64,000 nucleotides of DNA. Source: Deltaproteobacteria bacterium. Its GTDB lineage: Bacteria; Myxococcota_A; UBA9160; UBA4427. Position numbers and translations under genes: made by a program. This document shows positions 1,420 through 53,351 of this stretch, one piece after another. Every line of letters starts with the position of its first letter. Position 1 is the first letter of the stretch. The notes under the pieces were generated by a model, which saw only the letters and a program-made list of their open reading frames with translations, had not been told where the DNA came from and ran no database searches. The stretch lies in NCBI GenBank assembly GCA_019310975.1, contig JAFDDH010000014.1:1-64000 (forward strand), given 5' to 3'.

Positions 1420-3660
1420 TCAGCTTCCCACCTGCAGGACCTCACGCTCGTACACATCGAGTGCGTCGTAGATCGCTACGGGCCGACACGCAGCGGCCTC
1501 GGCGCTCGGCAACGCCACCGCACCGCTCACCCCGATGATGCGTGCGACGATCGAGCGAATCGCAGAGAGCGCACCGTCCGCCTCGGGCACCAGTGCACGT
1601 GGATCGAATGTGTTGCTCGCGAGGCGCACCACCTGAAGCTGCTCGGCTTCGAGCGCAGTCCAGTTGAGCAGCAGATCAATCAGCAGTACCGGCTTGGGGC
1701 CGAGTCCGTGCACCGCCACGACCGAGACTGCTTCGATCCTGTGGTACTCGAGCTTGGCCCTGCGGTCGGCGGCCACCGTGAAGCGGACGACATCGTCCTG
1801 CAGACCGGTGAGCGCAGCCTCCACGACCTTGCAGCTACCAAAGCGCGCGCGGTCTTCGATGCCTTCGAGAACACCGAGCGAGACGTCGTCCCCCACACAG
1901 TCCTCGAGAGCATCCGACGAAAGCTCGAGCGGCGGCTCCGAATCGGCCTCCGGCATGGGCGCCTGGGGGACCGGCGGCGGGACGGGCGGCGGCACTGGAG
2001 GCGGCAGGGGCGGTGGGATGGCGGGGCCCGGTTGACCGGCTGCAAGCGGAATCGGCGCCACAACCACTCCGTCTTCCAGCTCGTCGGGTAGCTCGATCTC
2101 GCGGCGCTCGGTCTCGGCGCGGCGCATTTCCTGCTCGGCGACAACGTCCGGCGCCGCCTCGACGCCTGCGGCCTCGAACTCCTGGATCCAGCCCAGAATG
2201 CGCGCCCGCTTGGCCTCGTGGACGTCGCCGGATTGCAGGGCCACCCGCGCGGCGCGCAGCGCACTCGGCGGATCGCTCTCGCGCCCGAGCTCCACGGCGC
2301 GAAACGCAAGGCCGGTGGTGAGCCCGGAATTGCCGGGATCCACCGCGTGTCGAAGCGCACGGAGTGCGAGCTCTTGATCGCCGTCGGCGAGTAGCCCGGG
2401 CACGAACTTGATCAGCGTGCCGGGATCGACCAGCGCAGTGGGCAGGACGCGCAGCAGCTCATTCCAGTGGCGGATCGCCAGCTCGGTCTCGCCAGCGCCC
2501 ATGCAGGTACGCACGAGACTGAGCATTGCCTCGCGCCCGAGCTCGGGCTGCTCGACCGCCAGGGCGGCATCCCAGAGTGCGAGCGCCACGTCACGATCGC
2601 CGGCCTCGGAGCGCCAAGCCTCCTGCAGCATCGCCAGCGCAGCCGCGTGATCGCCCTCTCCCCGTGCCGTCAGCGCCTCCTGGACGATCGGGTTCGTCTC
2701 GGCCAGGGTAACCTTCGCCTCGATCTTGGAGTCGATGTACTTCTCCTCGAGCCCGAAGATGCGCGCAGCGCCGACTGCAGCGGCGCCGAAGAGGAAGCCA
2801 CCCACATGCGCCGAGTTGGCGACGCCGCTCTCTACGCCGCCGCTGTGCACCAGCCAACCCTGGAAGAGCTCGTTGAGCAGCCAGAGCGGCAGCATGACCC
2901 ACGCCTTGGCCTCGAACGTGCCCCAATAGGGACGCAGACCAAACATGAAGAAGTACGCAAAGCGAATGTCCGTCTTCCAGTAGCGAATCAAGAAGGCGCC
3001 CAGAACGCCCGCGATGGCGCCGGATGCGCCGACCAGTGGAATGTCCTTGACCGGCGTGAGCAGCGCCCAGAAGAGCGCCGCGGACATGCCGGCCAGCAGA
3101 TAGAAGCTGGCGAAGATCGGCCTGCCCAGACGGTCTTCGATGGCGGGTCCTGCGAGGAAGAGCATGAAGAGGTTGCCCAGGAGATGCAGCCAGCCGGCGT
3201 GCATGAAGATGCTGGTGATGAGCGTACCCAGGCTCCACTGGCTCGGCGTGAAGCCCCACTCCCGATACGGGTCGTGGGCGCCCTCGATCTGGGGCGGGAG
3301 TGCGCGCCCGAGCGCGATTTCCGTGAGCCGGTCGAGCTCGTCCTGCTGTGCTTTCCATTCATCCGGATCGTCTGGCGAGGTCGCCAGCGACTGGTCCTCG
3401 ATCAACGCGAGGTATTGGGTGCGCTCGTTGGGCATCACGTCGTAGCCCACTTCGCTGAGGATCTCGGGCTGGGCTTCGAGATAGGCGTGATCGCGCCAGT
3501 ACTCCGATGCCTCGTCCATCAGGAGCTGCGGGTCGTAGTCGTACGCGGGTCCGCTGGGATTGGTGGCGAGCAGGGCGAGCACGCAGATCGCCATGATGGC
3601 GAACGTCACCCACGGCAGGCGCCGCGTGGTAGAGTCCGCGTGGCCGATGGGCAGGATCAT
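1420..3660 (-). CDS. rhomboid family intramembrane serine protease with long cytosolic TPR-like region, Pro-rich linker and C-terminal domain
   Basis: HAGWLHLLGNLFMLF, GASGAIAGVLGAF (Ser), AHVGGFLFG (His) rhomboid motifs; likely start MILPIGHADS at 3660 inside ORF 1420..3723. Confidence 0.9.
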   Translation of the reverse strand: MILPIGHADSTTRRLPWVTFAIMAICVLALLATNPSGPAYDYDPQLLMDEASEYWRDHAYLEAQPEILSEVGYDVMPNERTQYLALIEDQSLATSPDDPDEWKAQQDELDRLTEIALGRALPPQIEGAHDPYREWGFTPSQWSLGTLITSIFMHAGWLHLLGNLFMLFLAGPAIEDRLGRPIFASFYLLAGMSAALFWALLTPVKDIPLVGASGAIAGVLGAFLIRYWKTDIRFAYFFMFGLRPYWGTFEAKAWVMLPLWLLNELFQGWLVHSGGVESGVANSAHVGGFLFGAAAVGAARIFGLEEKYIDSKIEAKVTLAETNPIVQEALTARGEGDHAAALAMLQEAWRSEAGDRDVALALWDAALAVEQPELGREAMLSLVRTCMGAGETELAIRHWNELLRVLPTALVDPGTLIKFVPGLLADGDQELALRALRHAVDPGNSGLTTGLAFRAVELGRESDPPSALRAARVALQSGDVHEAKRARILGWIQEFEAAGVEAAPDVVAEQEMRRAETERREIELPDELEDGVVVAPIPLAAGQPGPAIPPPLPPPVPPPVPPPVPQAPMPEADSEPPLELSSDALEDCVGDDVSLGVLEGIEDRARFGSCKVVEAALTGLQDDVVRFTVAADRRAKLEYHRIEAVSVVAVHGLGPKPVLLIDLLLNWTALEAEQLQVVRLASNTFDPRALVPEADGALSAIRSIVARIIGVSGAVALPSAEAAACRPVAIYDALDVYEREVLQVGS
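1967..2026. repeat. degenerate 12-bp tandem repeat, 5 copies
   Basis: encodes PPPV/PPPL repeats in the linker of the rhomboid protein. Confidence 0.8.
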
Positions 3661-3813
3661 CGAAGCTCCCCGGGGCGGCGCCCCTGGGCATGGAATCGAC
3701 CGAACGAAAGCCGCGCATGACACGCCAGAGGCGTGTGCCCGTGACTTTCAGCCTACTTCGACCGGCTCCATGCGGATTGGATCAGGCGGCGTGAGGCGGG
3801 AGCGTCCTCTGGC

Positions 3814-50657: not shown

Positions 50658-50733
50658 TCATGACCGGCTCTCATGACCGGCTCTTACGACGGGCTCTTAT
50701 ACGACGGGCTCTTATACGACGGGCTCTTAGAGC
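50658..50733. repeat. tandem repeat: three 13-bp units then two 15-bp units
   Basis: tcatgaccggctc x2, ttacgacgggctc, ttatacgacgggctc x2, then ttagagc. Confidence 0.95.
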
Positions 50734-50746
50734 AAGTCGTGTGCCG
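50731..50746 (-). promoter_or_regulatory. candidate sigma-54 promoter of the HK-HK-RR-PspA operon
   Basis: minus strand CGGCAC-ACGAC-TTGCT, matches TGGCAC-N5-TTGCW apart from the first base. Confidence 0.6.
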
Positions 50747-51000: not shown

Positions 51001-53136
51001 TCAGCGCTGGACCTGAAGGACCTGCTGCTCGTAGGCGTCGAGAGAGTCGAAGCTCGGCACGATCAGCCCCAGGGCCGCCTCGGGATCCGGTAGCGGGATT
51101 GCGTGGGTGCGCTCCATCAGGGTCGTCAGCAAGGAGCGCAGCGCCTCACCGGCATCCGTCTCGGCGGGCACCAGCTCGAGCGGATCGAATTCGTCGCTGC
51201 GCAGGCGCACCAGGCGCCTCGGCGCACCGCCATTGTCGCCCGCATCCATCAACAGGTCGATGATCACCACCGGCTCGGCAGCCAGCCCGCTCACCTCGCC
51301 CACTGCGATCGCCTGCACGAGCGCGAATTCAATGCGCGCCCTGCGCTGCCCCGCCACCTCGATCAGCAGCGCATCGGTCTGCAGGGCCGTGGGCCGCGCG
51401 GGCATCCGCTTCAGATCGGGAAAGAGCGGCGCCTCGACGCTTGGATCGATGGGAATCTCGGCGGCGACCCTTGTCTCGGGCGTGGCGACGGCGACGGCGA
51501 CATCCTCGGGTTCGCCGAGCGGCTCGGGCTGCGGGTCGAGTGCCGCCAGGGCTTCATCCGTCTCGCTCACGTCCGCACCGTGCACGACCGCCGGCGGCGA
51601 CTGCGACACGGCGCTCGCAGCGCTGTGATCTGGCTCCCCGATCTCGACGTCCAGGTCGGGCCCCGCCGCAGCGACTTCGGGCTCGGGCTCCGAGGCCGGC
51701 GCCTCGGGCAGCTCTTCGATGTTGAGCTCTGGGAATGACTGGGCGAGCAGGTCGACGTCCACCTCGAGATCCGGCTGCGAGACCTCGAGATCGTCCACCT
51801 CCAGATCCGGCGCAGAGTCGGCCAGGATGTCGAGGTCGAACTCGCCGTCCGGACCGGGCTCGAGCTCCACTGCCCGATCGTCGGCGACCGACTCCGGCTC
51901 GCCGAGAGGCGACGGCGCGGCTTCGAGCGGCACTTCGCTCCCCTGCACGTGCGCTGCCTCCACGGCTGGCTGCTGCTCACTCTCGTCCTCTACGGCGTCT
52001 GCTCCGCCTCTTTCGACGGAGCCCGGACGCGAGGGAGGCAGGCGCTTTTGCATCGCCTGCACCTCGCGATCGGAGAGCCCGGCGTGCGGCGGGCTCTCGG
52101 TTCGCATCGGGTGGTTGCGCGCGTGGATCTCGGTCACGGATGACTCGCTGTCGGACTCGTCCGAGCCGCAATCGGATGGCGCCGCCGCACTCTCGGGCTC
52201 GTCGGGCTCGTCGGGCTCGGCGGGCTCGACGGGCTCGGCGGGCTCGGCGGCAGCAGCGGGGGGGGCGCCCTCTGATGGCGGCGCAGGATCGCACTCGGAC
52301 TCCTGCGGCGTCGCGCCGGGGTCGAGCTCGGAGATCAGCGCCCGCATGCGGTCGCGCTTGGTCTCGTGGATGTCGTCGCAGCCCAGAGCGTGACGGGCCG
52401 CGGCCACTGCGCACTCGGGATCGAGCTCCTTCGCCAGCTCGGCCACGTGCATCGCCACGCCGGCTGTGAGCGATTCGCGGTTGCGCTCGTCCACGATACC
52501 GCGCACGGCCGAGCGCAGAGCCGAGGTCCGCGCGGCCCGCGCCTCGCGGGCCAGGACCATCTCGGGATCCGCCTCGGCGTCTCCTCCCTCACGCCCCTCA
52601 CGCCCCTCGGGCCCCTCGGGTCCCTCGGGCCCCGATCGCTCCTCGGCCTCGGCCTCGGCGTCCGCCTTCACCTGCTCGGCAAGATGGGGGATGAGACGCA
52701 CCAGCGTAGAGGGATCGATCACCGAGCCCGGCACCAAGCCATCGAGCTCGATCCAGTACTGGGTCGCGAGCTCGTGCGCGCCGATCGCGTTCTTGCGGAT
52801 CAGACTCGCGACGGCTGCAACAGCCTCAGACGGCCGCTCATAGGCGACGGCGACGTCCCAGTAGAAGCTCGCCACCTCGGGCTCATCCGCCTGATCATCG
52901 TGGGCCTCCTTCGCGAGGTGGAAGGCGGCCGCCAGATTTCCGCGCTCGCGCGCTTCGATGGCCTGCTTGAGCAGACTGCTGCGGGCCGCTTCCTTGACGC
53001 TGCCCGCGACGCGGTCCATCAGGCCGCCGCCACGCTTCTTCAGCGAGTCGAGCAGACCTCGGCCCGCTTCGGCCTCGGTCTCGCCGTTGGCAGCGGTCCC
53101 CTCCTCGCGGTCCGGCTTGCGCTGGAATACGCCCAT
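51001..53136 (-). CDS. large soluble protein: TPR-like region + acidic/low-complexity linker + C-terminal domain shared with rhomboid 1420..3660
   Basis: start MGVFQRKPD at 53136; C-terminus VVIIDLLMDAGDNGGAPRRLVRLRSDEFDPLELVPAETDAGEALRSLL...SFDSLDAYEQQVLQVQR aligns with the rhomboid C-terminus. Confidence 0.85.
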   Translation of the reverse strand: MGVFQRKPDREEGTAANGETEAEAGRGLLDSLKKRGGGLMDRVAGSVKEAARSSLLKQAIEARERGNLAAAFHLAKEAHDDQADEPEVASFYWDVAVAYERPSEAVAAVASLIRKNAIGAHELATQYWIELDGLVPGSVIDPSTLVRLIPHLAEQVKADAEAEAEERSGPEGPEGPEGREGREGGDAEADPEMVLAREARAARTSALRSAVRGIVDERNRESLTAGVAMHVAELAKELDPECAVAAARHALGCDDIHETKRDRMRALISELDPGATPQESECDPAPPSEGAPPAAAAEPAEPVEPAEPDEPDEPESAAAPSDCGSDESDSESSVTEIHARNHPMRTESPPHAGLSDREVQAMQKRLPPSRPGSVERGGADAVEDESEQQPAVEAAHVQGSEVPLEAAPSPLGEPESVADDRAVELEPGPDGEFDLDILADSAPDLEVDDLEVSQPDLEVDVDLLAQSFPELNIEELPEAPASEPEPEVAAAGPDLDVEIGEPDHSAASAVSQSPPAVVHGADVSETDEALAALDPQPEPLGEPEDVAVAVATPETRVAAEIPIDPSVEAPLFPDLKRMPARPTALQTDALLIEVAGQRRARIEFALVQAIAVGEVSGLAAEPVVIIDLLMDAGDNGGAPRRLVRLRSDEFDPLELVPAETDAGEALRSLLTTLMERTHAIPLPDPEAALGLIVPSFDSLDAYEQQVLQVQR
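52195..52248. repeat. in-frame 9-bp tandem repeat gggctcgNc, 6 copies (encodes EP(A/D/V) repeats)
   Basis: read directly in sequence. Confidence 0.93.
52586..52630. repeat. in-frame 9-bp tandem repeat ccctc(ac/gg)g(c/t), 5 copies (encodes GPE/GRE collagen-like triplets)
   Basis: read directly in sequence. Confidence 0.9.
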
Positions 53137-53351
53137 TCGCGACTGGCGGCTCCCCATGAATGGAGCCCGGACGTACTGCGTACGCCGGCAGCTCCGATCC
53201 ACGCATCATCGACCGAGCGACGGCGACGCTGAACGGCTTTTCGACATCCGAGCGGAAGCAGCGCGGGTCGTTCACGAGCTGCGCTCAGCACACTGCAGCA
53301 TGACCCCAGGAACCGGCAACTCGGCTTCACAGACGCGCAGACCACATCCTC

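Follow-up and report, generated by a model that had tools for sequence, protein, structure and literature searches.

The window analysed here is a 64,000-nucleotide stretch of the deltaproteobacterial contig JAFDDH010000014.1, and it carries a soluble protein (P0002) and a membrane paralog (P0001) of the same protein family. The probable start of P0002 is the in-frame ATG at 53136, which opens MGVFQRKP and is also the end assigned to the gene in the original prediction; ATG 53157 and GTG 53202 are alternative starts. The protein is composed of a short N-terminus, a TPR-like region, an acidic linker with low-complexity tandem repeats at 52194-52260, and a C-terminal domain, in that order. Seven more genomes in the order have soluble homologues of P0002.

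51001..53202 (-), soluble family member P0002, open frame of 733 codons
52306..53013 (-), TPR-like alpha-helical repeat region of P0002, with a Gly/Pro/Glu-rich insertion (HMM bounds)
51415..52305 (-), acidic Ala/Pro/Glu-rich linker of P0002, about 297 residues, net charge -68, probably disordered
51016..51414 (-), C-terminal domain of P0002, 133 aa, apparently a diverged PH-like fold of a beta barrel and a helix
45900-50657 (-), genes arranged like an operon, for two paralogous histidine kinases (a 2TM domain in one of them), a sigma-54 response regulator and PspA
1420..3723 (-), membrane paralog P0001, 767 aa, canonical rhomboid with TPR-like region and C-terminal domain
2740..3654 (-), rhomboid domain of P0001 (HMM bounds; Pfam Rhomboid, 8.8e-27)
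2158..2727 (-), TPR-like region of P0001 (HMM bounds, profile comparison)
1435..1833 (-), C-terminal domain of P0001 (HMM bounds, profile comparison)
L089:4602-7316 (-), pseudo-rhomboid paralog on contig C13, intact 905-codon frame

Rhomboid proteases (PF01694) are built on a six-helix domain that carries a catalytic dyad of a GxSG serine and a TM6 histidine. The Pfam search returned no rhomboid match in P0002, hydropathy gave no membrane helix outside the beta-rich C-terminal domain, and the serine/histidine dyad is absent. A conserved basic amphipathic helix in place of the membrane part was considered and rejected, since hydrophobic moments were mostly no better than those of shuffled sequence and P0002 is not basic at that position. 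The PADLOC models for anti-phage defence did not match the protein.

P0001, with its probable start at ATG 3660, has both catalytic residues, the serine in a GASG motif and the histidine in an AH motif. Its hydropathy profile shows five clear helices, and we infer the fifth of six. The TPR-like region and C-terminal domain come after the last membrane helix, and six helices together with a basic N-terminal side would place this module in the cytosol, a location predicted from the hydropathy profile and the positive-inside rule. At least four family members are encoded in the genome: two canonical rhomboids, one pseudo-rhomboid and the soluble protein. The second canonical rhomboid (C73) has the Ser/His dyad and is cut by a contig end. 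In the pseudo-rhomboid L089 the catalytic serine is replaced by threonine and the histidine by isoleucine, and the domain still scores above the Pfam Rhomboid cut-off (23.2 bits vs 22.6). L089 is predicted to be a rhomboid pseudoprotease of the iRhom/Derlin kind, the fold being retained without its catalytic residues and, by the dN/dS of 0.19-0.30 in comparable dead pairs, maintained by selection. Another rhomboid is found at C13:3726-4142, about 9 kb from L089, and other rhomboids are also present in 12 of 12 genomes checked.

The shared module and its fold

P0002 had been described as a soluble paralog of the extension of the rhomboid, lacking the protease and aligning with it in three blocks, and both sequence and profile matches bear this out. 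Blocks 1 and 2 correspond to the TPR-like repeat and block 3 to the C-terminal domain (about 133 residues). BLASTP of P0002 against P0001 found block 3 alone (39% over 138 aa, E=2e-22), and a whole-genome search with P0002 as the query recovered blocks 1 and 2 in P0001 at E=9.5e-14 and 5.1e-7. A profile-profile comparison, of the kind that the original prediction had proposed for the two proteins, was made with disjoint sets of 8 soluble and 12 canonical rhomboid forms, and gave E=2.3e-44 for the TPR region and E=3.6e-45 for the C-terminal domain at a probability of 100%, the two profiles aligning over almost their whole length. By these comparisons the homology of P0002 with the module of P0001 is beyond doubt, and not a chance resemblance.

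TPR domains consist of tandem 34-residue helix-turn-helix repeats. The TPR-like region of P0002 was modelled by AF2 as all-helical (pLDDT 88, pTM 0.79) and the C-terminal domain as six strands followed by a helix of 16 residues and a short tail (pLDDT 88, pTM 0.83), both from input alignments of only 9-10 rows taken from the window and related loci. Pfam assigns the TPR-like region weakly to TPR_19, with the TPR matches of the window proteins below the cut-off and those of the relatives L009 and L013 above it. Foldseek returned mostly TPR proteins for this region at a probability of 0.9-1.0, but with E-values of at least 2.8e-3 and low TM-scores. The region resembles TPR adaptor proteins in its modelled helical hairpin repeats, its weak Pfam matches and its Foldseek probabilities, and differs from them in being diverged, with weak E-values and low global TM-scores.

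The C-terminal domain is not named by any Pfam model, and by sequence it matched no solved structure. The PH superfold is a seven-stranded barrel capped by a C-terminal helix, and the bacterial PH domains (bPH_5, bPH_6, bPH_11 and YcxB-like) share with the modelled domain a beta barrel plus helix. Single members of the present family give weak profile matches to them, one reaching bPH_6 at 2.8e-4; no member passes convincingly. Foldseek gave weak PTB/PH-type matches (best E 0.13, PH-type TM-scores below 0.45). At the level of the modelled fold the domain looks like a diverged PH-like domain, and we do not call it a PH domain.

Gene neighbourhood of the soluble form

P0002 is preceded by ThiS-like and molybdenum hydroxylase genes and followed, on the same strand, by the genes for the two histidine kinases, the sigma-54 response regulator and PspA, the ends of which overlap. 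This histidine kinase-NtrC-PspA run is likely an envelope-stress module. A sigma-54-type site at 50731-50745 (-) precedes the kinase operon; the window has this single match, where 0.19 would be expected. Between this site and the start of the first kinase, at 50685-50729, lie three perfect copies of the 15-bp unit TACGACGGGCTCTTA.

The position of the kinases, response regulator and PspA downstream of P0002 and on its strand would suit a protein that had gone its own way, for example as an input to this operon, and was no longer related in function to rhomboids. We consider this improbable: the operon has a sigma-54-type site of its own and lies 343 bp from the soluble gene, and the other soluble copies are found without kinase-NtrC-PspA neighbours. 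Across the soluble copies no conserved neighbours were seen, in no genome was a family rhomboid gene seen beside the soluble gene, and genes for FtsH, a chaperone or a client do not share a conserved operon with the soluble form. The other soluble copies have different neighbours, and we draw no functional link from the neighbourhood.

Distribution, partners and selection

The C-terminal domain is carried by 57 of the 80 genomes of the window's order, which takes in MAGs placed by NCBI in Myxococcota. In a phylum-wide sample it was otherwise found in one more taxonomic family of the class and, marginally, in one further family, and the full-length form also occurs in Acidobacteriota (L012-L015). 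The rhomboid, TPR-like and PH-like protein family is thus found mainly in one order of Myxococcota. Two pairs of loci, L009/L184 and L010/L183, each lie on the same contig. Canonical rhomboid forms occur in the taxonomic families f3, f4 (with one exception), f5, f10 and f11, in Acidobacteriota and in a few f1 and f7 genomes, and degenerate rhomboids throughout most of f1 and f7. Eight complete soluble forms were found in two families of the order (the window, L121, L127, L133, L140, L188, L213 and L215), a count that leaves out the contig-end or frame-split copies L119, L129, L179, L180, L192, L202 and L214. At L129:2157-4980 (-) the rhomboid part is read in one frame and the module in another that overlaps it, owing to a frameshift that is either real or a sequencing error. 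At L142:6385-8295 (+) two hydrophobic N-terminal segments replace the rhomboid, and L142 may represent a stage between the membrane forms and the soluble ones.

From the occurrence of both forms in one genome, the original prediction proposed a regulatory pair in which P0002 would be a soluble decoy, adaptor or substrate-like regulator of the active rhomboid P0001. The two do share the whole cytosolic module, and shared modules can compete for one partner. However, of the eight genomes that have a complete soluble form, a canonical family rhomboid (Ser/His, HxxxN) was found in just one, the source genome itself, and 17 genomes have canonical members without a soluble form, counts that are limited by fragmented assemblies with missing genes. 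The soluble form is thus not bound to a canonical protease from its family, and pairing of the two is not the general rule. The two genes are also unlinked, and in the module tree the nearest relatives of P0002 are other soluble proteins rather than P0001. We regard pairing with P0001 as distinctly improbable; of the earlier interpretation, what stands is a soluble paralog of the rhomboid extension that lacks the protease. An adaptor that works by itself, or a soluble partner for the pseudo-rhomboids, is a better fit than a protease decoy.

The soluble form does co-occur with a rhomboid form if degenerate members are counted, and on that count neither outcome named by the original prediction as refuting it, absent profile homology or absent co-occurrence, was seen. 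These were found in seven of the eight soluble-form genomes, the eighth (G039) having an unclassifiable contig-end copy, with the term degenerate pooling members that have lost Ser or His and members that keep the dyad without the TM2 HxxxN context and might still be active. Such co-occurrence would be expected if the soluble form were a partner of the pseudo-rhomboids without proteolysis, for example in a hetero-oligomer or through a shared client. We hold this to be unlikely, as degenerate members are so common in the two taxonomic families that the co-occurrence is close to expectation, and 21 genomes (some of them incomplete assemblies) have a degenerate member with neither a soluble nor a canonical form.

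The shared-module tree (77 rows) places the soluble forms in a nine-row group that includes one long-branched rhomboid. A single soluble clade was not rejected (p-AU 0.42), with a fewest-change count of two, and the tree is compatible with the eight soluble forms being one clade nested among rhomboid forms. The Ser/His dyad, scored as intact or lost, requires at least eight state changes on the tree. Rhomboid forms are widespread, also outside the order, from which we infer that change ran from rhomboid to soluble. At L141:1700-3676 and L199:4654-6750, in genomes of two taxonomic families, the proteins are near-identical (tree distance about 0.01), which suggests cross-contamination of one assembly.

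Dead and soluble pairs had dN/dS values (NG86) of 0.17-0.25 over the module; dead rhomboid domains gave 0.19-0.30 and canonical pairs 0.11-0.32, with the caution that some dS values are near saturation. The resemblance of the dead and soluble values to those of canonical pairs argues that these members are not decaying pseudogenes, and purifying selection on the dead rhomboid domains that they are kept as folds. For P0002 itself, the long low-complexity linker, the repeat-rich insertion and a fairly long branch in the tree might be read as signs of a decaying duplicate without function. An open 733-codon frame, the conservation of both domains and a dN/dS of 0.21 for the soluble orthologue pair L133/L140 make this highly improbable, and for the soluble clade it is largely refuted.

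As a pattern across this family, then, the shared cytosolic module is what selection preserves and the protease domain can be dispensed with. That domain is canonical in some lineages, repeatedly disabled yet maintained as a membrane fold in others, and absent from the soluble clade. That the cutting part has been disabled many times and dropped in the soluble branch suggests that what has been kept is the shared tail, not cutting. The series of active, inactive and protease-free members is a more interesting result than a pair with a protease.

A candidate adaptor module and comparison with known systems

The reading we favour, with a confidence that falls just short of even, is that the TPR plus PH-like module is a non-proteolytic, adaptor-like unit, borne by active rhomboids and maintained pseudo-rhomboids and also existing by itself. 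The TPR region would bind a client protein or other protein partner, and the PH-like domain either the surface of the membrane or another protein; with a long acidic linker between them, the two could engage separate partners. Where the module is attached to a rhomboid or pseudo-rhomboid, it would connect membrane clients with a machine in the cytosol, in the manner in which YqgP couples MgtE to FtsH; alone, it would be a mobile adaptor that shares the partners of the membrane forms or competes for them. The wider proposal, which we put forward as possible though on balance doubtful, is a bacterial counterpart of the iRhoms and Derlins, in which module-bearing rhomboids would have given rise to many maintained pseudoproteases and one soluble-adaptor clade, together forming a non-proteolytic system for handling membrane proteins.

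The reason for the existence of rhomboid pseudoproteases, and their possible origin as adaptors, have been discussed mainly from eukaryotes and one bacterial protein, YqgP. In the open-access literature searched, rhomboid pseudoproteases are treated as eukaryotic apart from the dual role of YqgP, though earlier notes on inactive bacterial rhomboids may be missed. The present family offers, in a single bacterial order, a natural series of active members, members that are degenerate yet maintained, and members free of the protease. Comparing these would allow the role of the non-cutting remainder to be tested, and the family also brings in a C-terminal domain without a Pfam name.

YqgP (GluP), the TPR-bearing rhomboid of B. 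subtilis, presents MgtE to FtsH independently of catalysis, so that protease and pseudoprotease are combined in one protein, and in the sections of that study drawn on here its authors see such adaptor roles as the origin of rhomboid pseudoproteases (PMC7231995). The likeness to YqgP, a rhomboid with an added TPR domain, holds for the membrane members of the family and not for P0002. As described in those sections, YqgP has its TPR domain at the C-terminus, outside the cell, and its cytosolic domain at the N-terminus (PMC7231995), whereas the TPR plus PH-like module of the family follows the last helix and is predicted to be cytosolic, on the opposite side of the membrane from the TPRs of YqgP. 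The same sections describe no soluble form (PMC7231995). The iRhoms and Derlins are eukaryotic rhomboid pseudoproteases with non-proteolytic roles (PMC12615303), and they resemble the degenerate members in keeping the rhomboid fold after loss of the catalytic residues. They differ in being eukaryotic and in their other extra domains, and the comparison is made on the rhomboid fold; the present family, in addition, includes a form that lacks the rhomboid domain altogether.
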